From contig MHBE01000027.1 of the NCBI GenBank assembly GCA_001803205.1, positions 1 through 35,375 on the forward strand: a DNA stretch of 35,375 nt, read 5' to 3'. A program made the position numbers and the translations under genes. How positions within the stretch are numbered: the first letter of the stretch is position 1; the number at the start of each line of letters is the position of its first letter. Source of the DNA: Lentisphaerae bacterium GWF2_38_69 (GTDB lineage Bacteria; Verrucomicrobiota; Lentisphaeria; Victivallales; GWF2-38-69). The notes beneath the pieces were generated by a model. It was given only the letters and a program-made list of their open reading frames with translations. It was not told where the DNA came from and did no database searches. Below, one piece after another: positions 5,946 through 21,782 of the stretch.

Positions 5946-7112
5946 ATGCTAAGTATCTCAAAACTTTATTTAGGCAATGAGGAATACGGAGATATTCTTC
6001 GTTATAAAGAGACTCGTTCGGTTTACAAGAAACCAATTGTAGTGTGGAATCTAACTTCCAGATGCAATTTGACCTGCGAGCATTGTTACGCTAACGCAGC
6101 TCATTTTGCAAAAAATACTGATGAATTATCTACTCAGGAAGGGAAAACTCTTATTGACGATCTTGCAGCTTTTAATGTTCCTGTTTTGCTTTTTTCAGGA
6201 GGGGAACCTCTTGCCAGGAAAGATATTTTGGAACTTCTTTCATATGCGTCTTCTAAAGGTCTGAGAACAGTTCTTTCATCAAACGGGACTCTTATCGATG
6301 AGGAAAAAGCCCGATATTTAAAGAGAATCGGTATTTCTTATATTGGGATAAGCGTAGATGGCAATGAACAAACTCACGACAGTTTCAGACATAAGAAAGG
6401 CGCTTTTCAGGAAACTATGAGAGGAATAAGGATTTCCTTGAACGCAGGCCTTAAGGTAGGCTTGCGCTTTACAATGAATAAAAAAAATGCCTCAGATATA
6501 GATTATATTTTCAATTTGGTAGAACAGGAAGGGATTCACAGGATATGTTTCTATCATTTAATTCCTTCAGGAAGGGGAGCCTCAATCAGAGAGCTCGAAT
6601 TGAATATCGAAGAAAAAAGAAAAGTGATGGATCAGATTATAAACAGAACTACTGAAATCTATTCTAAATCAAACAGGACAGAAATCCTTACTGTAGCCAA
6701 CCATTGTGATGGAATTTACCTCTACCTGAGAATGAAAAAAGAAAACCATCCTGACGCTGAAAAGATCTTGTCTTTTTTAAGAAGAAACTCTTCCGACAGC
6801 AGCGGGATAGGAATTTCCTCAATTAATTGGAATGGGGAAGTCTATCCTGACCAGTTTTGGAGAAACAGAATACTGGGAAACATCCGGCAAGAAAAATTCA
6901 GCGAAATATGGGATTCATCAAAAAACGAATTTATGAACAAACTCCTTAATAGACGAAAATTTATAAAAGGCAGATGCTCAAGATGTCATTATCTGGAAAT
7001 ATGCGGAGGCAATTTCAGGTCACGCTCTGAGTACATTACCGGTGATACATGGGCTTCTGATCCAGGGTGCTACCTTTATGATGCAGAGATTTCAGGAGCG
7101 TCTTCTAAATGA
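5946..7112 (+). CDS. ahbC: 12,18-didecarboxysiroheme deacetylase (radical SAM, AhbC)
   Basis: AhbC is the radical-SAM enzyme that removes the acetate side chains of 12,18-didecarboxysiroheme to give Fe-coproporphyrin III in the siroheme-dependent heme pathway. The 388-residue protein has the AhbC/NirJ-like N-terminus (ISKLYLG), the SAM [4Fe-4S] motif CNLTCEHC (C40, C44, C47) and the SAM-binding GGEP. A C-terminal cysteine cluster (from C344: CSRCHYLEIC, then DPGC) should bind a second [4Fe-4S]. Its stop overlaps the ahbD start by four bases (ATGA). The assignment over NirJ rests on the ahbD and ahbAB neighbours and the absence of other heme d1 genes. Confidence 0.85.
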   Translation: MLSISKLYLGNEEYGDILRYKETRSVYKKPIVVWNLTSRCNLTCEHCYANAAHFAKNTDELSTQEGKTLIDDLAAFNVPVLLFSGGEPLARKDILELLSYASSKGLRTVLSSNGTLIDEEKARYLKRIGISYIGISVDGNEQTHDSFRHKKGAFQETMRGIRISLNAGLKVGLRFTMNKKNASDIDYIFNLVEQEGIHRICFYHLIPSGRGASIRELELNIEEKRKVMDQIINRTTEIYSKSNRTEILTVANHCDGIYLYLRMKKENHPDAEKILSFLRRNSSDSSGIGISSINWNGEVYPDQFWRNRILGNIRQEKFSEIWDSSKNEFMNKLLNRRKFIKGRCSRCHYLEICGGNFRSRSEYITGDTWASDPGCYLYDAEISGASSK

Positions 7113-8140
7113 GAGTTGTTGCCTGGGAATTAACAAAAAGATGCATGCTTAAATGCAAGCATTGCCGGGCAGGCGCAGAAAATATTTCATACAGCAATGA
7201 ACTTTCTTCCACTGAAGCAAAATTAATTATAGATTCACTCTCAAAAGAGTTGCCTCTGCTATTGATTCTTACAGGAGGCGAACCGCTAATGAGGCAGGAT
7301 ATTTATGAAATATCTTCTTATGCGTCTTTGCATGGAATAAGTGTTGTTATGGCTACATGCGGTTCTTTTATTACGGTTGATACTCTAACAAAACTAAAGA
7401 CTGCTGGTGTTCAAAAATTGAGCTTCAGTATAGATGGTTATGATGAGGCCTCTCACGATGAATTCAGAGGGCAGAAAGGAGCTTTTTCAGATGTGATCAG
7501 AGCAGCGCATTTATCAAAGGAGCATGATATGCTCTTTCAAATAAATACAACTTTGACCAAATCAAATTGCAATCAAATAGAAAAGATAAACGACCTGGCT
7601 AATCAACTCGGAGCAGACATCCATGACATTTTTATATTGATTCCTACAGGCAGAGCAGACAGCATCAGAGATGAACTTCTTGACTGTGAAGAATATGAAA
7701 AAATTTTAAGATGGATAGCAAATGAAGTTTTATCGGGAAGAAGGAAAATAAGAGTTACCTGTGCCCCTCATTATTCGAGGATTTTTCAAGATATTTCAAA
7801 AGAACTGGAGATCGTTAATACTTTTAAAGCAAGACCTCCATCTGCGTGCATGGGAGGCAGAAATTTTTTCTTTATATCCAATACTGGGCAAGTCTATCCA
7901 TGCGGTTTTTTCCCTGTAGAAGGGGGAGATTTGAGAAAGAACAGTTATGACTTTCTCAAGACAATTAGAGAATCTAAACTTTTCAATGACCTTAAAAATA
8001 AAGAACTTTACTCAGGAAAATGTTCAGTTTGCAGTTTTTTCAATGCTTGCGGAGGTTGCAGAGCAAGAGCTTTGGCTGTGAACGGAAACTATCTTGGAGA
8101 AGAGCCATTTTGTTCATATATTCCGGGAGTAACAAAATGA
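7109..8140 (+). CDS. ahbD: Fe-coproporphyrin III decarboxylase / heme synthase (radical SAM, AhbD)
   Basis: AhbD oxidatively decarboxylates the two propionates of Fe-coproporphyrin III to the vinyl groups of heme b, the last step of the Ahb route. The 343-residue protein starts with VVAWELTKRC and has the SAM cluster motif CMLKCKHC (C12, C16, C19) and LTGGEPL. Near the C-terminus, CSVCSFFNACGGCRARA plus a final FCSY match the auxiliary [4Fe-4S] cluster of this family. It overlaps both neighbours by ATGA, so the three genes are translationally coupled. Confusion with AhbC is unlikely because both types are present side by side with their distinct N-termini. Confidence 0.87.
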   Translation: MRVVAWELTKRCMLKCKHCRAGAENISYSNELSSTEAKLIIDSLSKELPLLLILTGGEPLMRQDIYEISSYASLHGISVVMATCGSFITVDTLTKLKTAGVQKLSFSIDGYDEASHDEFRGQKGAFSDVIRAAHLSKEHDMLFQINTTLTKSNCNQIEKINDLANQLGADIHDIFILIPTGRADSIRDELLDCEEYEKILRWIANEVLSGRRKIRVTCAPHYSRIFQDISKELEIVNTFKARPPSACMGGRNFFFISNTGQVYPCGFFPVEGGDLRKNSYDFLKTIRESKLFNDLKNKELYSGKCSVCSFFNACGGCRARALAVNGNYLGEEPFCSYIPGVTK

Positions 8141-9084
8141 CAGAGCTTTTTAAGTCCGAGCTGGAGAAAAGAGTGTTTATTTCCTTGCAGAAAGGAATAG
8201 AACTATCTTCCAGGCCGCTGTGCAAAATATCTTCAGAGCTTCAAGTTAGTGAACCGGAAATTATATCTTTCTACAATTCTTTTCTTGAAAGAGGGATGGT
8301 TAGGAGATTCGGAGCGATTTTTGAACCTGCAAAAATTGGATATAGAAGCATTTTATGCGCTTCTAAAATTGAGGAAGAGCAATTCAGCAAACTAGCAGAA
8401 AAGCTATTGAATATTAAAGAAATAACACATTGCTATACCAGAGATTATGAATATAATGTCTGGTTTACTTTCACCTGTAGGCAAGAGCTTTTTAAAAAGA
8501 GCCTGGATGAGATAAGGAATATTATCGGATATCCTATTCTGGAATTTCCGTCTGTAAGAAAATTCAAAACTGAAGTTATTTTTAAACTTGGGATTTCTGC
8601 GCCGCCCGCCGAATCCTTCAAAAATCCGATTTCCGGACAGATTGTATTTGATGACAATGATATTTCTTTGGCCAAAAAACTTTACAATATTTCATTGCTC
8701 CCAAATATCCTGGAAACATTTTCAGAAGATGTTCTTGCCAGATTAAAATATTGGCGAGACAGAGCAGTATTGAAGCGTGTGGCATTAGTTCCTTATCATA
8801 GGAATATCGGATATAAGGCCAATGCTATGTGCGTGTGGAATGTGGAAAAACAGAGAACTGAGATAGTCGGGAGAGAACTGTCAAAAAAAGCCAGTATTAC
8901 ACATTGTTATGAAAGAGTTCCGATCTCCGGAAAATTCCCTTATAATCTATTTGCCATGATACATGCAGGTTCTCATTCAGAGCTGACAGATGAATTCAGA
9001 AAACTGCAAATTGAGTTTAACCTCGAAAACGGCAGAATGCTTGAGACTGTTTCTGAACTTAAAAAGACCAGCTTTTATCCTTAA
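8137..9084 (+). CDS. ahbAB: Siroheme decarboxylase, AhbA-AhbB fusion
   Basis: This 315-residue protein consists of two Lrp/AsnC-type units (about 1-150 and 165-315). It should carry out the first committed step, decarboxylating siroheme at C12 and C18. The first unit has VRRFGAIFEPAKIGYRS, ITHCYTRDYEYNVWFTF and resembles AhbA. The second has VPYHRNIGYKANAMCVW, ITHCYERVP and PYNLFAMIHA and resembles AhbB. AhbA and AhbB are often separate genes forming a heterodimer; here one chain would supply both. The start is the ATG inside the ATGA overlap with ahbD; an in-frame upstream extension lies wholly inside ahbD and is not protein-like. Its stop is immediately followed by a palindromic repeat. The sequence gives no sign that it is a DNA-binding regulator. 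Confidence 0.87.
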   Translation: MTELFKSELEKRVFISLQKGIELSSRPLCKISSELQVSEPEIISFYNSFLERGMVRRFGAIFEPAKIGYRSILCASKIEEEQFSKLAEKLLNIKEITHCYTRDYEYNVWFTFTCRQELFKKSLDEIRNIIGYPILEFPSVRKFKTEVIFKLGISAPPAESFKNPISGQIVFDDNDISLAKKLYNISLLPNILETFSEDVLARLKYWRDRAVLKRVALVPYHRNIGYKANAMCVWNVEKQRTEIVGRELSKKASITHCYERVPISGKFPYNLFAMIHAGSHSELTDEFRKLQIEFNLENGRMLETVSELKKTSFYP

Positions 9085-11195: not shown

Positions 11196-11675
11196 ATGAA
11201 TTCTAGTATAAGTGTCATTTTAAAGAAATATGAGTCCAAGAGTAGGGACTCTTTAATTCCTATCCTCCAGGAAGTTCAGGAGACTGAAGGATATTTATCT
11301 AAAGACGCTCTTGTTGAAATAGGTAAGGATTTAAACCTTCCTGTTAGCAAGATTTACGGTGTCGCCACCTTTTACAATCAGTTCAGATTTCAGCCTAAAG
11401 GAAAATATCACATACTTGTTTGCAGAGGAACTGCCTGCCATGTAAAAGGTTCTGAAAAGCTGCTTGAGACAATCTGCCGAAATCTGGATCTGAAACCAGG
11501 TATGACTACAAAAGACAGAATGTTTAGTATCGATACCGTTGCCTGTCTCGGAGCCTGTGGTTTGTCCCCCGTCATATGTATAAATGGGGAATTTGTCGCA
11601 AAAGTTACCCCCAAAAAGGCTCTGAAAATACTGGATGAATTAAAGGAAAAGGAGAGTGAAAATGCAAGAGTCTAA
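11196..11675 (+). CDS. hydC: NuoE-like [2Fe-2S] subunit of electron-bifurcating hydrogenase (HydC)
   Basis: This 159-residue protein of the thioredoxin-like [2Fe-2S] ferredoxin family (NuoE/HydC) has a helical N-terminus and then the cluster ligands C76-x4-C81 (CRGTAC) and C117-x3-C121 (CLGAC). In trimeric bifurcating hydrogenases this subunit passes electrons next to the flavin subunit. AAAGGAAAGGAT precedes the ATG. It is the first gene of a co-directional cluster of seven. Its end overlaps the start region of the next gene. NuoE proteins also occur in formate dehydrogenases and NADH dehydrogenases; the downstream hydrogenase settles the assignment. Confidence 0.88.
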   Translation: MNSSISVILKKYESKSRDSLIPILQEVQETEGYLSKDALVEIGKDLNLPVSKIYGVATFYNQFRFQPKGKYHILVCRGTACHVKGSEKLLETICRNLDLKPGMTTKDRMFSIDTVACLGACGLSPVICINGEFVAKVTPKKALKILDELKEKESENARV

Positions 11676-14600
11676 TAATACTGACAGGTATTCCTTATGG
11701 CTTAAACCTGTTTTGCCTGTCAAAGAGCTTATTGATTCAATAAATCCTGACAACCCGTTTTCAAAGAATTTTCTTAAAGGAAAAGAGGTTCTGGAAAAAA
11801 CTGTTAATCAATACAGGAAGCTGGATATCAGCAAACCTGTTATTTTTATTGGTTACGGTACATGTGGAATCGGTGCAGGTGCCGCTAAAACGCTCGATGC
11901 TGTAGAAGAGTATCTGAAAAAGAACAATATTGAAGCGGAGATTATTAAAGTTGGGTGCCTTGGAATATGCTCGATGGAACCACTATTAGATGTACAGTTA
12001 CCGGGCAAAAAGAGGATAAGTTTTCACAGTGCTACAGCTGATACAGTCGGCAGAATACTTGACGGTGTTTTTAACAGTTTATTGCCTGCAGAATATACTT
12101 TTGCTCAATATCACCAGGAAGGACTTGAAGAATGGAAAGGAATTCCGTACATCGATCAGACACCATTCTATTCAAGGCAGGTGCGCTGGGTACTGTCGAA
12201 TTGCGGAATAATTGATCCTATTGACCTTAATGCATATATAGCTTACGGAGGATTTTCAAATCTGGCTAAAGTCTTAAAGCATCATAAGCCGATTGATATA
12301 ATAGACATAATAGAGAAGAGCGGCCTTAGAGGACGCGGGGGCGGAGGATTCTCGACAGGGAAAAAATGGAGAATAGCCAACTCTTCAAAAATAAAAGAGA
12401 AATATCTTGTATGCAATGCCGATGAAGGCGATCCCGGAGCTTTCATGGATAGAGCTGTGATTGAGAGTGATACTTACAGACTGCTGGAAGGAGTTGCGAT
12501 TTCAGCCTATGCAATAGGAGCGAAGACCGCGTATATATATATCAGAGCTGAATATCCTCTGGCAATTAAGAGACTGGAGATTGCTATAAAAGAGGCAGAA
12601 AGAAATGGATTGCTTGGAGATAATATTCTTAACAGCAAATTCAGTTTGAAAGTCAAAATTAAGAAAGGGGCAGGGGCTTTCGTATGCGGAGAAGAAACTG
12701 CTTTGATACATAGTATTGAAGGCAAGCGCGGCATGCCCAGACCCCGTCCCCCGTATCCTGCAGAGAGTGGTCTTTTCGGTAAGCCAACTGTGATAAATAA
12801 TGTAGAAACTCTTGCTAATGTACCGGTGATTATGCAGTTGGGATGGGAGAAATTCGCTTCTGTCGGTTCAGGAGAAAGCAGGGGAACTAAAGTTTTTGCC
12901 CTTTCAGGAATGGTCAAGAAAACAGGTCTGGTGGAAGTTCCGATGGGGGTGACTATCAAAGAAATTGTTTATGATATTGCAGGGGGAATCCTGGGAAATA
13001 AAAAATGCAAGGCTGTTCAGATGGGAGGACCTTCTGGTGGCTGCATTCCTGATTCTCTCCTCGATGTGGCAATAGAATACGAATCGCTCAAAAAGCTGGG
13101 CGCTATAATGGGTTCGGGCGGTATGGTGGTAATGGATCAGAGTACCTGCATGGTTGACCTTGCTAAATTCTTTATGGAGTTTATACAAAGTGAAAGTTGC
13201 GGCAAATGCATACCCTGCCGTGAAGGGACTAAAAAGATGCTCGAAACAATCAAAGCTATCACGCGAGGAACTCACTCTGAACAAAAAATGGACACACTTG
13301 GCAGGTTTCAGCTGATTACTGAATTGGAGAGTCTTGCCTATAAAGTGAAGGAGTTAAGTTTGTGCGGACTGGGTCAGACTGCAGCGAATCCTGTTCTTAG
13401 TACTTTGCGCCATTTCAGAGAAGAGTACGAGGCTCATATTTTTGAAAGGAACTGCCCTGCTGGAGTATGTATTGAACTTTCAGGAGTTCCATGTCAGACG
13501 GGATGCCCTGTTGAAACCGAAGTATGGAGATATGTCGCAAATATATCACGGGGTGAATACGAAGAAGCTTACAAAGTAATAAGAAGCGCCAACCCAATGC
13601 CTTCAATTTGCGCAAGAGTATGCGACAGGCCATGCGAAAAAGCTTGCCGTTCAGGAACAACCGGAGGAGAGCCTATTGCTGTAAGGACTCTTAAAAGATT
13701 CGTTGTCGACAGGGTAAGTCCTCAGGTTTATCACTATGATTATAAGAAAGCCGATGAAAAATCCAATAAGATAGCCATTGTAGGCGGAGGTCCTTCAGGT
13801 ATAACAGCAGCTCATTATCTTTCACTGTCAGGGAACAAGATTACTATATTTGAGCAGGAAGGAGTCTTGGGAGGCATGCTTAATTGCGCAATACCTTCAT
13901 ACAGGCTTCCGCGGCAAACATTGACACAAGAGATAGATTCTCTGCTCAATGAAAATATTGAAGTTAAATATAATCAGATGCTTGGCAGAGACTTCGATGT
14001 GGAATCACTGCTTACTTTAGGATATAAAAGCATATACATATCTATTGGAGCGCACAAAGAACAGAGGCTCGGGGTGCCTGGAGAGAAAGTTGCCGGAGTT
14101 TACCCTTCAATACAGTATCTGAAGAATTTTAATCTTTACAATAAAAACTCAGCAGTTGGAAAAGTTGGCATAATCGGCGGAGGCAATAGCGCTATTGATT
14201 CTGCAAGAGTTGCCATCAGGCAGCAAAATGTAGAAAGCGTCTCAGTTTTCTATCGCAGAACAGAAGATGAAATGCCTGCTTACAGAGAGGAGATTGAAGC
14301 TGCTTTGGCTGAAGGAGTAAAAATTGTTACTCTGGTCTCTCCTGTAGCTGTTCTTTCAGAAAATGACAATATAACAGGTCTCACACTTGCAAAGAACAAA
14401 CTCGGAGAGCCTGACGGTAAAGGCAGAAGGAAACCAGGTGTGATAGAAAACTCAAATTTCGATGTAAGTCTAGACACTCTTATCATAGCAGTTGGAGAGA
14501 AACCTGATACAGAAGGCATAAAAGGTCTTAGGCGCTCTGAAGCGGGAAGTCTTGTAGTCAATACTGATACTTTTGAGACAAACATCAAGGGCGTTTTTGC

Positions 14601-14928
14601 CGGAGGAGATGTGATAACTCTTCCAAACGCTGTGATCCACGCCATTGCTCACGGGAAAAAGGTTTCAGGTATTATAAACCGTTATCTGGCTGGTAAATCA
14701 CTTTTACTGACTAAAGGTTTAAGAAGAAATCCATCAGTGTATATAGAGCCTTTCGAATCTGACGAAGTAAGCACGGAAGGTTCCGGAAGGATTCATCCTG
14801 CTGAACTTTGCATAGCCGAAAGACGCTGTAGTTTTAATGAAGTTGAACTTCCGGTAAGAGAAGATGATGCAAAGAAAGAAGCGCTTAGGTGTTCAAGATG
14901 CGATTTAACTTTTACAAAGACAATCTAG
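11662..14928 (+). CDS. hydB: NuoF/HydB-like flavoprotein fused to a GltD/NfnB-like NAD(P)H module
   Basis: This 1088-residue fusion has several parts. Residues 1-140 are a thioredoxin-like [2Fe-2S] domain (GTCGIGAG, VGCLGICS). Residues ~150-590 are a NuoF core with the FMN/NAD loop GLRGRGGGGFSTG (~221-233), NADEGDPGAFMDR (~252-264) and the [4Fe-4S] site ESCGKCIPC (from C513). From C598 a GltD-type two-cluster domain (CPAGVC, CQTGC, CARVCDRPCEKAC) follows. It leads into a tandem dinucleotide-binding flavoprotein with GGGPSG (from 708) and GGGNSAIDSAR (from 839) and ends with RCSRCDL. T. maritima-type HydB instead ends in a small ferredoxin domain; here a whole GltD module occupies that place. 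Together with HydA and HydC this predicts electron exchange among H2, ferredoxin, NAD(H) and probably NADP(H). The ATG at 11662 is preferred over a GTG at 11656 because AAAAGGAGAG is ideally spaced before it. Confidence 0.9.
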   Translation: MQESNNTDRYSLWLKPVLPVKELIDSINPDNPFSKNFLKGKEVLEKTVNQYRKLDISKPVIFIGYGTCGIGAGAAKTLDAVEEYLKKNNIEAEIIKVGCLGICSMEPLLDVQLPGKKRISFHSATADTVGRILDGVFNSLLPAEYTFAQYHQEGLEEWKGIPYIDQTPFYSRQVRWVLSNCGIIDPIDLNAYIAYGGFSNLAKVLKHHKPIDIIDIIEKSGLRGRGGGGFSTGKKWRIANSSKIKEKYLVCNADEGDPGAFMDRAVIESDTYRLLEGVAISAYAIGAKTAYIYIRAEYPLAIKRLEIAIKEAERNGLLGDNILNSKFSLKVKIKKGAGAFVCGEETALIHSIEGKRGMPRPRPPYPAESGLFGKPTVINNVETLANVPVIMQLGWEKFASVGSGESRGTKVFALSGMVKKTGLVEVPMGVTIKEIVYDIAGGILGNKKCKAVQMGGPSGGCIPDSLLDVAIEYESLKKLGAIMGSGGMVVMDQSTCMVDLAKFFMEFIQSESCGKCIPCREGTKKMLETIKAITRGTHSEQKMDTLGRFQLITELESLAYKVKELSLCGLGQTAANPVLSTLRHFREEYEAHIFERNCPAGVCIELSGVPCQTGCPVETEVWRYVANISRGEYEEAYKVIRSANPMPSICARVCDRPCEKACRSGTTGGEPIAVRTLKRFVVDRVSPQVYHYDYKKADEKSNKIAIVGGGPSGITAAHYLSLSGNKITIFEQEGVLGGMLNCAIPSYRLPRQTLTQEIDSLLNENIEVKYNQMLGRDFDVESLLTLGYKSIYISIGAHKEQRLGVPGEKVAGVYPSIQYLKNFNLYNKNSAVGKVGIIGGGNSAIDSARVAIRQQNVESVSVFYRRTEDEMPAYREEIEAALAEGVKIVTLVSPVAVLSENDNITGLTLAKNKLGEPDGKGRRKPGVIENSNFDVSLDTLIIAVGEKPDTEGIKGLRRSEAGSLVVNTDTFETNIKGVFAGGDVITLPNAVIHAIAHGKKVSGIINRYLAGKSLLLTKGLRRNPSVYIEPFESDEVSTEGSGRIHPAELCIAERRCSFNEVELPVREDDAKKEALRCSRCDLTFTKTI

Positions 14929-14952: not shown

Positions 14953-16677
14953 ATGCCTGTAAATATTGAGATAAATAATATAAGCGTCAAAGTGCCTAAA
15001 TGTGATACGATTCTATCCGCAGCAAAGAAAGCGGGAATAAAGATCCCCACACTTTGCCATTTGGAAGGTTTGCTCCCGAGCGGTGCCTGCCGTATATGCG
15101 TGGTAGAACTTGAAGGTTCACTAAATTTAGTGCCTGCTTGTTCTACTGCAGTTCGAGATGGTATGAAGGTGAAAACGCATACAGCAAGGACTCTTGATGC
15201 AAGAAGAACAATTGTCGAACTTCTCCTTAACAATCATCCTGACGATTGCAATTATTGTTTGAAGAACAACTACTGCGAACTCCAAAAACTGGCATATGAA
15301 CTGAATGTAAGAACCAGAAGCGCTTCGCATTCGGTGAGACATATGAATTTGGATTGCTCAAGCCCCTCTTTGCTAAGAGATCCTAATAAATGCATTTTGT
15401 GCGGCCGATGCGTAAGAATATGCGAAGAAATTCAGGGAGTATCCGCGATCGATTTTATCAAGCGTGGAAGCAGTTCCCAGATATCTCCTGCTTTTGAAGA
15501 GGGAATGAACCTTTCAAGCTGTGTTTATTGTGGTCAATGCGTAAAGGCCTGCCCGACCGGCGCTCTTATCGAAAAAGACCATGTCCAGAGAGTTATCGAA
15601 GCTCTAAATAATCCAAAGGCTTATTTAGTTGTTCAGCACGCGCCTGCTGTTTCAGTAAGCCTGGCTGAAGATTTCGGTTTCAAGCCCGGAGTAGATGTTA
15701 ATGGTATTATGGTTGCAGCTCTTCGCAGAATTGGGTTCAAAAAAGTTTTTGACACTTCGTTTTCTGCAGACCTTACAATAATGGAGGAGGGCTCTGAACT
15801 AATTGACAGGATAAAGAATAATGGAGTATTGCCCATGATAACATCCTGTTCTCCTGGCTGGATTAAGTTCATAGAACAGTTTTATCCCGAATTACTGCCG
15901 CATGTCTCAAGCTGCAAGAGTCCACAGCAGATGCTGGGAGCTGTAATTAAAAGTTATTTTGCTGAAAAACAGGGATTAAAGCCGGAGCAGATTTTTTCTG
16001 TGTCGATAATGCCGTGCACTGCCAAGAAGTTTGAGTCAGACAGGACTGAAATGCAACGGGATTCTGTTCCTGACATCGATGCTGTTCTTACTACAAGAGA
16101 ACTAGGGCAGATAATAAAGATTTTTGGTATTGATATGAAATCGCTTAAGCCTGAGACAGCGGATACCCCGTTTGGCACGAGAAGCTCAGCAGGGAAGATT
16201 TTCGGAACTACAGGCGGAGTGATGGAAGCGGCTATCAGATCTGTTCATTTTCTTATAACAGGCAAAGAGATGGAAAATCCTGTCATCCCAGAGCTCAGGG
16301 GGCTTCAGCCAATCAAGAGAGCAAAAGTAAAAATAGGCGAGCTAGATGTAGGAGTTGGCGTGGCTCACGGTCTGGCAAATGCCCGTGTATTGCTTGACGA
16401 GTTAAAAGCTGGCAGCAGTGATATGCATTTTATTGAAATTATGACTTGTCCCGGAGGATGCATTAATGGCGGCGGCCAGCCTTATAGCCTTGATTTGGAA
16501 GCTGTTAAGGCAAGAATGAAGGCTCTCTATAAAATAGATGCTTCAGACAGTTTGAATAAATCGCATATGAATGAAGAAGTTGGAAGACTTTACAGAGAGT
16601 TTTTAGGTTCCCCTCTGGGAGAAAAGAGTCATGAACTTCTGCATACGCATTATCACAAGAGGGAAGTCCTCAAATAA
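14953..16677 (+). CDS. hydA: [FeFe]-hydrogenase catalytic subunit (HydA, M3-type)
   Basis: This 574-residue protein interconverts H2 with protons and electrons. Domains in order: a plant-type [2Fe-2S] ferredoxin (residues 1-75); the His-Cys [4Fe-4S] motif (HPDDC, CLKNNYC); two [4Fe-4S] sites (CILCGRCVRIC, CVYCGQCVKACP); the H-cluster domain; and a small-subunit-like tail. H-cluster ligands are C299 (TSCSPGW), C355 (MPCTAKKFE), C499 and C503 (CPGGCINGGGQP). The first motif is TSCSPGW, not TSCCPGW: Ser300 replaces the cysteine that relays protons in well-studied enzymes. GGAGGG precedes the ATG. It sits 24 bases after the flavoprotein gene. It is cytoplasmic; no signal peptide or Tat motif is seen. 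Confidence 0.93.
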   Translation: MPVNIEINNISVKVPKCDTILSAAKKAGIKIPTLCHLEGLLPSGACRICVVELEGSLNLVPACSTAVRDGMKVKTHTARTLDARRTIVELLLNNHPDDCNYCLKNNYCELQKLAYELNVRTRSASHSVRHMNLDCSSPSLLRDPNKCILCGRCVRICEEIQGVSAIDFIKRGSSSQISPAFEEGMNLSSCVYCGQCVKACPTGALIEKDHVQRVIEALNNPKAYLVVQHAPAVSVSLAEDFGFKPGVDVNGIMVAALRRIGFKKVFDTSFSADLTIMEEGSELIDRIKNNGVLPMITSCSPGWIKFIEQFYPELLPHVSSCKSPQQMLGAVIKSYFAEKQGLKPEQIFSVSIMPCTAKKFESDRTEMQRDSVPDIDAVLTTRELGQIIKIFGIDMKSLKPETADTPFGTRSSAGKIFGTTGGVMEAAIRSVHFLITGKEMENPVIPELRGLQPIKRAKVKIGELDVGVGVAHGLANARVLLDELKAGSSDMHFIEIMTCPGGCINGGGQPYSLDLEAVKARMKALYKIDASDSLNKSHMNEEVGRLYREFLGSPLGEKSHELLHTHYHKREVLK

Positions 16678-16692
16678 GATAACTTAAAAGAA

Positions 16693-18717
16693 ATGAAAGA
16701 CGGAAAAACCCTCATCAAGACTATTCCAGAGCGCTGTAAAATGTGCTATACATGCGTCAGGGATTGTCCTGCAAAGGCAATCAGGGTCAAGGCTGGACAG
16801 GCTGAGGTATTGCCTGAAAGATGTATCGGGTGCGGTAACTGCATAATCGTGTGTTCCCAAAAAGCCAAAGAGTATTACAGTTCAATAGATGAAACCCGTG
16901 AGATTTTAAAGACAAACTCCAAAAAGATAGCTATACTTGCTCCAAGCTTCCCCGCCAGTTTTAGTTATATTCATAGCGGCTATCTGATAGATTTGCTTAA
17001 GAAAATTGGATTTGATCATGTATGTGAGGTGGCTTTCGGAGCTGACCTTGTGGCATATGAATATAAGAAACTTGTTTCAGAAAACCCTGACAAATGTTTT
17101 ATTGCTACTACTTGCCCCGGGGTTGTTTCGTATGTGGAAAAATATTACCCCAGGCTTGTAAATGTCCTTGCTCCTATAGTTTCACCAATGATAGCTGCAG
17201 GAAGAGCGTTGAAAATACTTTACGGGATGGATTCAAAGATAGTTTTTATCGGACCGTGCTTTGCCAAGAAAGAAGAAGCTTTTCGCTGCAAAGGCAGAAC
17301 AAATGTCGATCCCATAGACGCTGTTCTTACTTTTATTGAATTGAAAGAGATGCTTGAAGATGTGAATTATGCCTTGAAGGATCTGGAAGATAGTGATTTC
17401 GATCCTCCGAAAGCAGGACTGGGAGCGCTTTTCCCTATAAGAGGAGGATTGCTTCAGGCCGCTGAACTTCAGGAAAATCTGATTGAATCCAAAATACAGA
17501 GCGCTGAAGGAAAAGATGATTTTATTCAGGCAATAAAAGAATTTGAAGTAGAATTTTACGGGGCTAATCTTCTTGAAATTCTTTGCTGCAAAGGCTGCAT
17601 TATGGGCGCCGGAATGGGAACTAAGGAACATTATTTTGCCAGAAAGACAGCTGTTAGCAACTATATCAAATCTCATACGAGAGTAGAAGAATCCAAGAAT
17701 AATTATGAATTGTACAAGACTCTTAAAAACAGAGGATTGGATTTGCATGTTAAATTCTCTTCAGCTAACTACAGATCGCCAGTTCCAGACAACGATATTT
17801 TGAGTTCAATTCTTGCCAGAATGGGAAAAAATAAGGAAGAGGACGAGCTAAACTGTGGAGCCTGCGGTTATAAGACATGCAGGGAGCATGCTGCGGCAAT
17901 TGCTTCGGGGCTGGCCGAAAATGAAATGTGCCTGCCAAATACGATTGAGCGTCTGAAGAAATCACTCAGCGAACTTCAGGATTCAAAAGGTGAGATTGCC
18001 AAAATACAGGAGGCGCTTTTCAACGCGGAAAAACTCGCGAGCATGGGGCAGCTTTCGGCCGGAATAGCTCATGAAATTAATAACCCGTTGGGAATCATAC
18101 TGCTTAATTCAAATGTACTGCTGGAGGAAATTGGAAACAGAGAAGAATACAAGCAGCTTAAAGAGGATCTCAAATTAATCGTTGAACAGGCTGAAAGATG
18201 CAAAAAAATCGTTTCAGGGCTGCTTAATTTCTCCAGAATAAATAAGATAGTCAGGATTCCTACTGACATTGAAGCTCTGATTAATGACTCTCTGCGTTCT
18301 GTAATGAAGCCTGAAAATATAAATATAAAAATCGATTGCTCCTTTATAAATCCAATGGCGGAAGTGGAAGGAGAGAAAATAATTCAGGTGCTTGTCAATC
18401 TGATTAAGAATTCTATAGATGCAATGCCTTCAGGAGGAGTAATAAATATTTCAGCATTTGACAAGGAAGAGGACTTCTTCATAATTGTGAAAGATAATGG
18501 CGTTGGTATAAGCGAGTCCAACATCAATCGCGTTTTTGAGCCTTTTTTTACTACAAAATCTATAGGAAAGGGAACAGGCCTTGGGCTTGCTGTCTCATAT
18601 GGTATAATCAAGATGCATAAAGGAAGTATTACTATAAAATCAAATGCAGATCCAGCCAAAGGCCCAACTGGTTCTGAAATCACAATTACTCTGGGCAGAA
18701 AAGTTGACACTTATTAA
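16693..18717 (+). CDS. H-cluster-like [FeFe]-hydrogenase domain fused to a histidine kinase (H2/redox sensor)
   Basis: This 674-residue chimera starts with two [4Fe-4S] motifs (CKMCYTCVRDCP; CIGCGNCIIVC), followed by a diverged [FeFe]-hydrogenase large-subunit domain (~75-320). The four H-cluster cysteines are kept: C141 in TTCPG, C189 in GPCFAKK, and C298 and C302 in CCKGC. The surrounding motifs differ strongly from the catalytic enzyme upstream. A Fes-type [4Fe-4S] domain (C388, C391, C396 and a later Cys) and a short coiled linker lead to a HisKA domain with phospho-acceptor H460 (GIAHEINNPLG). An HATPase domain follows (NSIDA, DNGVGIS, GKGTGLGL). Group C-type hydrogenases (HydS) are proposed H2 sensors, usually linked to PAS domains. 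This direct fusion suggests that H2 or redox state sets the kinase activity. It lies 15 bases after hydA. Confidence 0.88.
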   Translation: MKDGKTLIKTIPERCKMCYTCVRDCPAKAIRVKAGQAEVLPERCIGCGNCIIVCSQKAKEYYSSIDETREILKTNSKKIAILAPSFPASFSYIHSGYLIDLLKKIGFDHVCEVAFGADLVAYEYKKLVSENPDKCFIATTCPGVVSYVEKYYPRLVNVLAPIVSPMIAAGRALKILYGMDSKIVFIGPCFAKKEEAFRCKGRTNVDPIDAVLTFIELKEMLEDVNYALKDLEDSDFDPPKAGLGALFPIRGGLLQAAELQENLIESKIQSAEGKDDFIQAIKEFEVEFYGANLLEILCCKGCIMGAGMGTKEHYFARKTAVSNYIKSHTRVEESKNNYELYKTLKNRGLDLHVKFSSANYRSPVPDNDILSSILARMGKNKEEDELNCGACGYKTCREHAAAIASGLAENEMCLPNTIERLKKSLSELQDSKGEIAKIQEALFNAEKLASMGQLSAGIAHEINNPLGIILLNSNVLLEEIGNREEYKQLKEDLKLIVEQAERCKKIVSGLLNFSRINKIVRIPTDIEALINDSLRSVMKPENINIKIDCSFINPMAEVEGEKIIQVLVNLIKNSIDAMPSGGVINISAFDKEEDFFIIVKDNGVGISESNINRVFEPFFTTKSIGKGTGLGLAVSYGIIKMHKGSITIKSNADPAKGPTGSEITITLGRKVDTY

Positions 18718-18728
18718 GAGGAAAAATT

Positions 18729-19139
18729 ATGACCAGCGAAGTAAAATCATACACCGGAAAAACAGCCATAATCATAGATGACGATATAGATTATCTTGAG
18801 ATTCTAAGAATTTATCTAGAGAATTATGGCTTTAGTGTTGTTACTGCCGGCTCCTTTGAAGAGGGGATGAGGCTGCTTGATGAAGTTGTTTATGATTTGG
18901 CTGTTTTCGACCTTATGATGGAAAACGCCGACAGCGGTTTTGTCCTTAGTTATAACTCCAAGAAGAAATATCCTACTATCCCCGTTCTTATACTTACAAA
19001 TGTAGCGAATGAAACAGGTATTAGATTTGACAATCTGTCAGACGAAAAAAAAGCCTGGATAAAGGCAGATGGAGTTCTTAACAAAGGTATCAGAATGGAA
19101 CAGCTGAAAAAAGAGATAGATAGAGTTTTTGCTAAATAA
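18729..19139 (+). CDS. Stand-alone response-regulator receiver domain
   Basis: This 136-residue protein is a receiver domain and nothing else. It has the acidic triad start IIDDD, the phospho-acceptor D61 (FDLMM), a Thr in LILTN and a Lys-containing loop near residue 119 (LNKGI). There is no output domain, so it acts by protein contact or as a phosphorelay shuttle, as Spo0F and CheY do. GAGGAAAAATT precedes the ATG. The hydrogenase-domain kinase 11 bases upstream is the obvious phosphate donor, and the receiver-kinase hybrid downstream is a possible recipient. Partner assignment is inference from gene order. Confidence 0.88.
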   Translation: MTSEVKSYTGKTAIIIDDDIDYLEILRIYLENYGFSVVTAGSFEEGMRLLDEVVYDLAVFDLMMENADSGFVLSYNSKKKYPTIPVLILTNVANETGIRFDNLSDEKKAWIKADGVLNKGIRMEQLKKEIDRVFAK

Positions 19140-19143
19140 ATCT

Positions 19144-20265
19144 ATGCAGAAACTAAACTTGCTCATAATCGACGATGAACAGGGCTTGAGATATGGAATT
19201 GTCAGGACTCTCCGAGATTTTTCATTTAAGCCTGATGAATACGATGACGAGGTTTCATTTCAGATAAGCGAGGCTGGAACTGGTCAGGAAGCTCTAGCGA
19301 TTATGGATAAGCAGGAGTTGGATATTGCGCTTGTTGACTATAAGCTTCCTGATATTAACGGCGTCGAACTTCTTAATATTATCAGAGAAAAAAAATATAA
19401 TCTGCTGTCGGTATTTATCACAGCCTATGCTTCGCTGGATGTAGCAGTTTGCGCTACGAGAAATGGAGCTTATGATTTTCTTGCTAAGCCGTTTTCTCCA
19501 GATGAGCTTAAGAATGTTATCAGAAAAGCATCATCAAGAATTATCCTTCAGAAGAAAGCTAAAAAACTTGAAGAAGAGAAGAAATTAATCCGTTTTGAAT
19601 TTCTTTCTGTTCTGTCTCATGAATTAAAAGCTCCTCTCAATGCTATAGAAAGTTATCTGAGGATAATAGAATCGCGGATCTCCGGAGAGGATATAGCATC
19701 TTACGAAAAGATGATTAAGCGTTCTCTGGAAAGAGTTGAAGGAATGAAAAAGCTCATTTTTGATCTTCTCGACCTGACAAGAATTGAATCAGGACAGAAA
19801 AAGAGAATGATATCTCCTGTCAATCTTCAGGAGGCTGCATCTAAATCAATTGAAACTTACCAGTCGATGGCTTCAGATAAAGGCATCCATGTCGTCCTGA
19901 AATCTGAAAAGGAAATCCTAATCAATGCAGATGCCGGAGAAATGGAAATACTCTTCAATAATCTTATTTCCAATGCTATAAAATATAATAAAGACTATGG
20001 AGATGTCGTTATCTCTCTTTCAAAAGAAAACGATGCTGTAAAGATAACTGTTGAGGATACGGGCATTGGGTTCAAGGATGAGGAAAAATCAAAAATTTTC
20101 AAGGAGTTTGTCAGATGCAGAAATGAGTTGACCCAGGGAATAGAGGGCAGCGGTCTTGGGCTTTCTATTTTGAGTAAACTGGTTAAACTCTATGACGGTT
20201 CTATTAACCTTGAAAGCCAATTTGGAAAAGGTTCTAAATTTTTAATAACGCTCAGGAAGATTTAA
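19144..20265 (+). CDS. Receiver-histidine kinase hybrid protein
   Basis: This 373-residue soluble protein has an N-terminal receiver (IIDDE; phospho-acceptor Asp in LVDYKLPD; KPFSPDE). The receiver carries an unusual acidic insertion between helix 1 and strand 2 (KPDEYDDE). A coiled linker, a HisKA domain with H159 (SVLSHELKAPLNAI) and an HATPase follow (NAIKYN, EDTGIGF, GSGLGL). No membrane segment or DNA-binding domain is present. The ATG at 19144 is preferred over a TTG at 19129 that would overlap the preceding gene. Receiver-first kinases typically take phosphate from another kinase and pass a signal on, so it may be the second stage of the relay begun by the hydrogenase-domain kinase. 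Confidence 0.88.
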   Translation: MQKLNLLIIDDEQGLRYGIVRTLRDFSFKPDEYDDEVSFQISEAGTGQEALAIMDKQELDIALVDYKLPDINGVELLNIIREKKYNLLSVFITAYASLDVAVCATRNGAYDFLAKPFSPDELKNVIRKASSRIILQKKAKKLEEEKKLIRFEFLSVLSHELKAPLNAIESYLRIIESRISGEDIASYEKMIKRSLERVEGMKKLIFDLLDLTRIESGQKKRMISPVNLQEAASKSIETYQSMASDKGIHVVLKSEKEILINADAGEMEILFNNLISNAIKYNKDYGDVVISLSKENDAVKITVEDTGIGFKDEEKSKIFKEFVRCRNELTQGIEGSGLGLSILSKLVKLYDGSINLESQFGKGSKFLITLRKI

Positions 20266-20267
20266 TT

Positions 20268-21674
20268 ATGGAAAAGTATTCCAGAGGGCATTCTGACTTT
20301 ATAAACGATGCTGATCTTGATGCATTGATCTTAAAAACCAAGGAAGACAAATTAAGAATCAGAGATGTACTTTCCAAGAGTATGTCGAAAGTTGCTTTGT
20401 CGGCAGAAGAATGCGCCGCTCTGATAGCCGCTGAAGATGAAGATACTGTAGAAGAGATAAAAGAGGCAGCGAGAAAGCTCAAGAAGGAAGTTTATGGAAA
20501 TAGAATTGTTATTTTCGCCCCTCTCTATATAGGCAATCACTGTATAAATGACTGCGAGTACTGTGCTTTCAGGAAAAGTCTGAGAACTACTGTAAGAAAA
20601 ACTCTTACAGAAAATGAACTTGTTTCCGAAGTGAAGGCTCTTGAGAATGTAGGACATAAAAGACTGATACTTGTTTTTGGGGAACACCCTGATTATTCAC
20701 CTGGCTTTATTGCCGATACAGTAAGAAAAGTCTATTCGGTTAAATCAGGGCACGGGGAAATCCGCCGTGTTAACATCAATGCAGCTCCCATGGATGTTGA
20801 AGGATTCCGTATCGTTAAGGATTCAGGTATAGGAACCTATCAGATATTTCAGGAGACATATCACCACAAGACTTATGAAAAGATGCACCCGAAAAATACC
20901 TGCAAAGGAGATTATCTTTACAGACAGGATGGTTTAAGCAGAGCTTTTGAAGCCGGTTGCGATGATATGGGAATAGGGGCGCTCTTCGGGCTTTATGACT
21001 GGAGGTTTGAGGCTATTGCTCTGGTCAAACACTCTCTCTACCTTCAGGAAAGATATGGTGTTGGCCCTCACACAATTAGTTTTCCAAGAATCAGGCCGGC
21101 TCATGGAGTTGAACTGGATAGCAGATATTTCGTCAGCGATAAGGATTTTGTTAAACTCATTGCAATTCTGAGGCTGAGCGTTCCATATACAGGTATGATT
21201 TTGACTGCAAGAGAAAGCGCAAAGATAAGAAATGAAGCTTTGGGGTTTGGAGTTTCTCAGATTGACGCAGGTTCCTGTATCGAACTTGGGGGCTATGCCA
21301 AGGGGAAAGAAAAAAATGAAGGAAACAAAGAGCAGTTCTCTTTAAGCGATACGCGTTCGATGGAAGAAATTGTAAATGAATTAATACAAACAGGGTATCT
21401 GCCAAGTTTCTGCACTTCCTGTTACAGGTTGGGAAGAACAGGCAAAGTCTTCATGGAATATGCTATACCAGGCTTTATAGGAGATTTTTGCACTCCAAAT
21501 GCTCTGCTTACATTAAAAGAATATCTTCTGGATTATGCTTCAGAGGAAACTAAAGGCAAAGGTCTTGATCTGATAAACAACGAAATGCAGAAAATCAGCG
21601 ATCTTTCCAGAAGGAAAATTGTAAATGAAAAGCTCAAAGCCCTTGATGACGACCAAAGAGATATGCTCTTTTAG
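20268..21674 (+). CDS. hydG: [FeFe]-hydrogenase H-cluster maturase HydG (radical SAM tyrosine lyase)
   Basis: HydG cleaves tyrosine to deliver the CO and CN ligands of the H-cluster as an Fe(CO)2(CN)-cysteine unit. The 468-residue length is typical. The SAM [4Fe-4S] motif CINDCEYC (C92, C96, C99) follows IFAPLYIGNH. The C-terminal CTSCYRLGRTG (C382, C385) and GDFCTPNA provide the auxiliary cluster ligands that separate HydG from the related ThiH. It begins two bases after the hybrid kinase gene and ends the cluster. The other maturases, HydE and HydF, are not in this window and must be encoded elsewhere if the enzyme is active. Confidence 0.95.
   Translation: MEKYSRGHSDFINDADLDALILKTKEDKLRIRDVLSKSMSKVALSAEECAALIAAEDEDTVEEIKEAARKLKKEVYGNRIVIFAPLYIGNHCINDCEYCAFRKSLRTTVRKTLTENELVSEVKALENVGHKRLILVFGEHPDYSPGFIADTVRKVYSVKSGHGEIRRVNINAAPMDVEGFRIVKDSGIGTYQIFQETYHHKTYEKMHPKNTCKGDYLYRQDGLSRAFEAGCDDMGIGALFGLYDWRFEAIALVKHSLYLQERYGVGPHTISFPRIRPAHGVELDSRYFVSDKDFVKLIAILRLSVPYTGMILTARESAKIRNEALGFGVSQIDAGSCIELGGYAKGKEKNEGNKEQFSLSDTRSMEEIVNELIQTGYLPSFCTSCYRLGRTGKVFMEYAIPGFIGDFCTPNALLTLKEYLLDYASEETKGKGLDLINNEMQKISDLSRRKIVNEKLKALDDDQRDMLF

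Positions 21675-21706: not shown

Positions 21707-21782
<76 letters not shown>

Follow-up and report, generated by a model that had tools for sequence, protein, structure and literature searches.

A conserved [FeFe]-hydrogenase-histidine kinase fusion with two receiver partners, a candidate H2- or redox-sensing circuit beside a bifurcating hydrogenase

How a sensory [FeFe]-hydrogenase passes on what it senses is an open question: the HydS proteins of Thermotoga maritima (TmHydS) and Thermoanaerobacter mathranii (TamHydS) have been studied closely as enzymes, and the papers cited here (PMC10055695, PMC8163306) establish no downstream partner for either. A gene block of Lentisphaerae bacterium GWF2_38_69 bears on this question; it lies in a stretch of 35,375 nucleotides (contig MHBE01000027.1 of assembly GCA_001803205.1, here called the window). 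A sequence-only reading had described a hydrogenase-histidine kinase fusion followed within 11 and 4 bases by a lone receiver and a receiver-first kinase (hereafter the receiver-kinase), between hydA and hydG, and the coordinates bear this out. The cassette is real, widespread and well conserved. Its function would be that of an H2- or redox-sensing circuit of two kinases and two receivers controlling the co-encoded bifurcating hydrogenase, with the lone receiver as a protein-protein output, a reading to which we give a probability of roughly 0.55. Because receptor and kinase share one chain and two candidate receivers are encoded next to it, H2-dependent autophosphorylation and phosphotransfer are directly measurable; none of the three proteins has an evident membrane part.

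Architecture of the fusion kinase and its partners

Domain content was assigned with Pfam and NCBIfam profiles, and residue counts for the fusion protein come from an alignment of 83 homologues. The cassette genes, with the domains of the fusion protein in its own residue numbering, are these:

16693..18717, plus strand: HydS-type hydrogenase-histidine kinase fusion, BfuT sub-type V like, 674 amino acids
16693..16872, plus strand: two [4Fe-4S] motifs (Fer4, residues 1-60; PF13237, 4.2e-8), eight Cys 98% conserved
16924..17610, plus strand: H-domain (Fe_hyd_lg_C, residues 78-306; PF02906, 4.9e-47) with C141, C189, C299 and C302, these Cys in 83/83
17848..17937, plus strand: iron-sulfur (FeS) domain (residues 386-415; PF04060, 7e-9), C388-x2-C391-x4-C396-x16-C413, Cys invariant in 83 sequences
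18043..18243, plus strand: HisKA dimerisation and phosphoacceptor domain (residues 451-517; PF00512), H460 in HEINNP; H460, E461 and N464 in 83/83
18376..18693, plus strand: HATPase_c catalytic domain (residues 562-667; PF02518, 1.3e-20)
18729..19139, plus strand: lone receiver (PF00072)
19144..20265, plus strand: receiver-first histidine kinase, REC-HisKA-HATPase_c (PF00072, PF00512, PF02518)

The Pfam matches confirm that ferredoxin motifs, a diverged hydrogenase domain, an FeS cluster domain and a complete histidine kinase lie on one polypeptide, and the further claim that all four H-cluster cysteines are kept holds for every homologue in the alignment. With hydrogenase positions given in CpI numbering, alignment with HydA shows that the equivalents of P231, K358, S323, P324 and E361 are kept nearly invariantly in the fusion proteins, that of K358 in 83/83. 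The proton relay of group A enzymes is replaced, C299 mostly by Asp, Thr or Ser, E279 by Tyr and S319 by Ala (T140, Y124 and A160 in the window's protein), while M353 has become Gly in all 83 and M497 has become Leu. Judged by alignment, the changes in the relay match sensory (group C/D) hydrogenases, in line with the earlier proposal of a hydrogenase-derived sensor kinase.

The same substitutions might instead indicate a sensor without an H-cluster, in which the H-domain holds [4Fe-4S] clusters only and the kinase responds to the redox state of the cell instead of H2. The lost relay and the replaced M353 and M497 would suit such a protein; eukaryotic Nar1/NARF offers a precedent, retaining similar cysteines without the diiron site; and divergently encoded, mostly Bacteroidales relatives of the fusion proteins have partly lost their H-cluster residues, many copies being without the C499 and K358 equivalents. 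We regard this explanation as rather improbable, since the fusion proteins themselves, unlike these degenerate relatives, have all four ligands of the cluster, as well as the equivalent of K358, in 83/83. Moreover, TmHydS, which has Gly at 353 and has lost C299 (PMC10055695), and TamHydS, which has Leu at 497 (PMC8163306), are both H-cluster-binding proteins that turn over H2, their hydrogenase activity being low (PMC10055695, PMC8163306).

No PAS domain was matched by Pfam in the window's fusion protein, where HisKA directly follows the FeS domain. In the predicted structure (mean predicted local distance difference test, pLDDT, 83) the N-terminal part matches solved [FeFe]-hydrogenases and a helix from residue 414 onwards links the FeS domain to the helices of the kinase. 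The prediction has low confidence over residues 432-460, a region that would need a dimer. The kinase core resembles the NtrB-like AtoS and ZraS, and in 83/83 it has ExxN, a motif of kinases that double as phosphatases. The low activity that TmHydS and TamHydS retain could also suggest that the fusion protein works chiefly as a slow hydrogenase, its kinase part being vestigial. This is very improbable, given that H460 and D601 are invariant in the 83 sequences, that the N-box and G-box are invariant or nearly so, and that two intact receivers accompany the kinase.

Both receivers retain the phosphoacceptor Asp and the Lys in every copy. The lone receiver consists of a REC domain alone, with D61 as phosphoacceptor and K119; its beta4-beta5 region is reshaped, with a short, atypical alpha4 and conserved G97, F100, W110 and D114, and the predicted model (pLDDT 91) has short helices only in this region. 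The beta4-beta5 face is the surface through which receivers commonly give their output, and its reshaping in the model would fit a dedicated protein partner. In the receiver-kinase D70, K120 and H164 are invariant among 76 homologues, in a numbering that begins at the alternative start TTG 19129, which would overlap the lone receiver gene, instead of ATG 19144. Ala or Ser occupies the ExxT/N position in 72/76, so that the receiver-kinase is mostly without the phosphatase motif. The difference in this motif suggests a fusion kinase able to take phosphate off as well and a receiver-kinase that mainly adds it. Pfam found no domains in the two partner proteins beyond REC and REC-HisKA-HATPase_c, which upholds the earlier statement that the block has no DNA-binding or enzymatic output domain.

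Conservation and inheritance of the cassette

Four genomes of the same order carry full-length homologues of the fusion protein (51-61% identity), each with hydA before it and a receiver and receiver-kinase after it. An alignment of same-order homologues was used to scan 84,980 species genomes, giving at least 80 loci, and conservation was tested in 82 distinct loci, with counts taken over those that have enough flanking DNA. The fusion protein was the sole bait, and the neighbouring genes therefore provide a fair test. One of the alignments omits L060, whose homologue contains an internal stop. The loci are labelled Lentisphaerae, Kiritimatiellota, Calditrichaeota, Hydrogenedentota, Phycisphaerae, Neomarinimicrobiota, Fermentibacteraceae, Chitinispirillaceae, Bacteroidota, Ignavibacteria, Acidobacteria, Deltaproteobacteria, Melainabacteria, Thermoleophilia, WOR-3 and others, labels that are only as reliable as the record titles because many records are metagenome assemblies. 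Within the window's own phylum the fusion protein is patchy, occurring in 12 of 289 genomes.

HydA lies directly 5' of the fusion kinase in 73 of 78 loci, and HydA and HydB both lie upstream in 59/63. The fusion kinase has a lone receiver next to it in 73/80 (downstream in 68, upstream only in five), the receiver-kinase is present in 67 of 70, and both partner genes are found in 62/70; the same cassette accompanies a Calditrichaeota homologue (L044). Among PAS-type HydS control loci of the window's order, a REC or receiver-kinase gene lies within 1.5 kb in 0/25. The contrast between 62/70 and 0/25 argues that the three-gene order is not due to chance, and the conservation beside [FeFe]-hydrogenases that had been proposed as a check is thus found. 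In L109, L107, L114, L116, L094, L063 and L070 the receiver-kinase is followed by a second hydCBA set with its own preceding lone receiver.

In a tree of the H-domain the fusion proteins form a clade adjoining the PAS-type HydS proteins. Nested inside it are 22 further relatives, mostly divergently transcribed and from Bacteroidales, on long branches with support that is weak in places. Some Bacteroidales loci, including L064, L069 and L099, have a second HydS-like protein, encoded on the other strand some 6.5 kb before the fusion kinase gene; many copies of it are without the C499 and K358 equivalents, and that of L069, the one tested, has a PAS domain. A SpoIIE-type phosphatase gene family is present at 20 loci, and a SpoIIE-like gene, recognised by resemblance to the L069 SpoIIE protein, follows at least two of the 25 PAS-type HydS loci (L027, L039).

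Pairwise distances of the fusion kinase correlate with those of the receiver-kinase (0.91) and the lone receiver (0.71), while those of HydA, HydB and HydC correlate with one another at 0.52-0.80. Joint divergence of hydA and the sensor is unsupported, the correlation being 0.35. The trio thus acts as one inherited unit beside a differently diverging enzyme, with the qualification that differing rates could yield part of this pattern.

The hydrogenase operon and the output of the circuit

The presumed target is encoded with the cassette. From hydC (11196) to hydG (21674), seven co-directional genes follow one another, either slightly apart or slightly overlapping. Beyond hydG, on the opposite strand, comes a tRNA-Phe gene (21707-21782). 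Besides the cassette, the operon holds:

11196..11675, plus strand: hydC, NuoE-like subunit with a [2Fe-2S] thioredoxin fold (PF01257, 1.9e-51)
11656..14928, plus strand: hydB, NuoF-like, fused to a GltD-like NAD(P)-binding half, 1090 amino acids (PF01512, PF10589, PF14691, PF07992)
14953..16677, plus strand: hydA, NADH-dependent [FeFe] hydrogenase of group A6 (NF040763, 837.7 bits, cut-off 765)
20268..21674, plus strand: hydG, H-cluster radical SAM maturase (TIGR03955, 498 bits, above cut-off)

The stop codon of hydA is at 16677 and the fusion kinase gene starts 15 bases downstream. A simple terminator scan gave a single plus-strand site within the operon, weak and inside hydC, with fewer sites in total than in shuffled sequence, and an Rfam scan of the window gave nothing besides one tRNA. 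The closest solved chains to HydA are the bifurcating HydA 8a6t and HydA1 7q4v. Its Ser at H-cluster ligand position 300 (TSCSPGW) was considered as a defect and dismissed, as it also occurs in 29/75 sequences and in the solved HydA1 7q4v. The window's HydB, with its GltD-like half, has 1090 amino acids as against about 655 in most cassette relatives. The genome encodes HydG in the window, HydE on contig C13 (above cut-off) and a HydF homologue on C40 (301 bits, slightly under the cut-off of 325.55), and so has the means to assemble an H-cluster. No copy of the trio is present at a second hydrogenase locus, on contig C35, which encodes HydABC with kinases nearby. Elsewhere in the window, a fused homologue of the siroheme decarboxylase AhbA-AhbB (8020-9084) stands beside two radical-SAM-like genes (5946-8140), which suggests an alternative heme or heme d1 pathway.

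The 674-amino-acid protein would be a sensory hydrogenase of group C type in which the usual PAS output is swapped for a histidine kinase. Its H-cluster would read H2, or a redox state set by H2, and the C-terminal FeS domain would hand the signal straight to the kinase coiled coil. Fusion kinase and receiver-kinase would jointly set the phosphorylation of the lone receiver; we infer this direction of phosphoryl flow from the ExxN motif of the former and the usual lack of ExxT/N in the latter. The lone receiver would be the terminal output, acting by protein-protein contact with the hydrogenase itself or with a transcription factor encoded elsewhere. In this way the trio probably lets the cell adjust its hydrogenase to the level of H2 or redox without a DNA-binding regulator of its own. 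Two kinases and two receivers make a better name than the phosphorelay that had been proposed: there is no HPt domain in the block, and the only one in the genome belongs to an unrelated 1085-residue hybrid kinase (contig C32), making a classical HK-REC-HPt-REC relay unlikely.

Where the signal leaves the block is a question on which the genome narrows the choice. An earlier suggestion, that it must leave through an unknown partner, stands insofar as the block has no output domain, and is narrowed by the Rex and NarL-type regulators beside relatives' cassettes and by a regulator on contig C48. The proposed search for orphan output regulators turned up this last one: among 27 receiver matches in the genome, five have DNA-binding output (one OmpR-like, four NtrC-like; contigs C5, C13, C19, C47 and C48), and all have a kinase match close by except the NtrC-type regulator of C48. 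A transcriptional two-component system, in which the fusion kinase phosphorylates a DNA-binding regulator elsewhere, such as that of C48, and the lone receiver serves as a modulator or as a sink for phosphate, would make use of just such an orphan. The similarity of the kinase core to AtoS and ZraS, whose known partners are NtrC-type regulators, points the same way, as do the precedents of HoxJ-HoxA and HupT-HupR and a NarL-type regulator upstream of hydC in eight relatives. Nevertheless, we consider it unlikely. The C48 regulator sits among oxidative-stress genes (rubrerythrin, ferritin, superoxide dismutase), matches to sigma-54 promoters in the window are fewer than expected by chance, and no NtrC-type response regulator is found in the window's block or conserved in the cassette loci of relatives. 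Across phyla the only DNA-binding regulator conserved beside the cassette is Rex, which has no receiver domain. Its gene, directly 5' of hydC or 3' of the receiver-kinase, occurs in 42/84 cassette loci and adjoins the cassette in 27 of the 44 that are fully flanked. The window's own genome has no match to PF06971, so that Rex control is unavailable here as far as a 95%-complete assembly shows.

A more specific form of the two-kinase, two-receiver circuit is possible, and is offered tentatively: the phosphorylated lone receiver may bind and switch the bifurcating hydrogenase post-translationally, with transcription left to others such as Rex. If so, H2 would feed back on a bifurcating enzyme through protein phosphorylation, in an arrangement conserved over many phyla, and anaerobes would have a new way to throttle electron bifurcation. 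Lone receivers recur near hydrogenase genes here. On contig C44 (L148:5169-8055) one with the motif DLMMEEVDSG, 35% identical to that of the window, ends an operon of [NiFe]-hydrogenase small and large subunits and a maturation protease, and in a genome of the same family (G002, L159:12726-15605) the [NiFe] operon continues directly into hydCBA and the kinase cassette.

Several observations weigh against the proposed circuit. Conserved cysteines and K358 alone are no proof of a diiron subcluster, and the weak distance correlation with HydA lends no support to tight co-adaptation of sensor and enzyme. Covariation between the dimerisation helices and the two receivers, over 66 loci, gave no significant interface signal in any of the four pairings. 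The cassette occurs without the lone receiver in L042, L048 and L050 and without the receiver-kinase in L047 and L064, from which it follows that not every part is essential everywhere. Finally, Rex beside many cassettes could mean simple control of transcription by NADH.

Comparison with known sensory hydrogenases

The nearest described system is BfuT of BfuABC sub-type V, a [FeFe]-hydrogenase of group C3 that carries a histidine kinase domain; it is known from Hydrogenedentota and Calditrichota, and its gene clusters share their organisation with that of Caldithrix abyssi (PMC11406978). The two share the hydrogenase-histidine kinase fusion and its place downstream of the bifurcating A subunit (bfuA). 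By architecture and position the window's protein is of this kind; in HydDB, group C is putatively sensory, C1 being kinase-linked and C3 phosphatase-linked. The main text of PMC11406978 mentions no response regulators, whereas the fusion here is accompanied by a conserved receiver pair. No description of this pair was found in the open literature, subscription papers and supplements lying outside the search, and priority for it is uncertain.

TmHydS, of group C, resembles the fusion protein in its two N-terminal clusters, its H-domain without C299 and with Gly at M353, its four-Cys FeS domain and its being encoded together with a group A hydrogenase, but it ends in a PAS domain where the window's FeS domain runs into HisKA-HATPase_c. 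The fusion protein thus has the two [4Fe-4S] motifs, the four H-cluster cysteines, the relay loss and the exact FeS-domain spacing of group C HydS proteins, and differs from them in having no PAS after the FeS domain. TamHydS, of group D, likewise has no PAS, carries the four-Cys C-terminal motif and Leu at M497, and its gene lies close to those of a bifurcating hydrogenase and a kinase-like protein; there the kinase is a separate gene, whereas here it is fused. The C-x2-C-x4-C-x16-C motif reported for groups C and D (PMC8163306) is identical to that of the fusion protein. The uniform Gly of the fusion proteins at M353 sets them apart from group D, where this position is Ser or Thr.

In the HoxBC-HoxJ-HoxA and HupUV-HupT-HupR systems, as proposed here, an H2 receptor resembling a hydrogenase governs a histidine kinase and so regulates another hydrogenase, but the receptor is a [NiFe] protein, the kinase a separate subunit and the output an NtrC-type DNA-binding regulator. 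Set beside these systems, the receptor-kinase is known in outline; what is new is the receiver pair, its spread over many phyla and the residue conservation, in what would be a two-receiver circuit whose output is likely not DNA binding.

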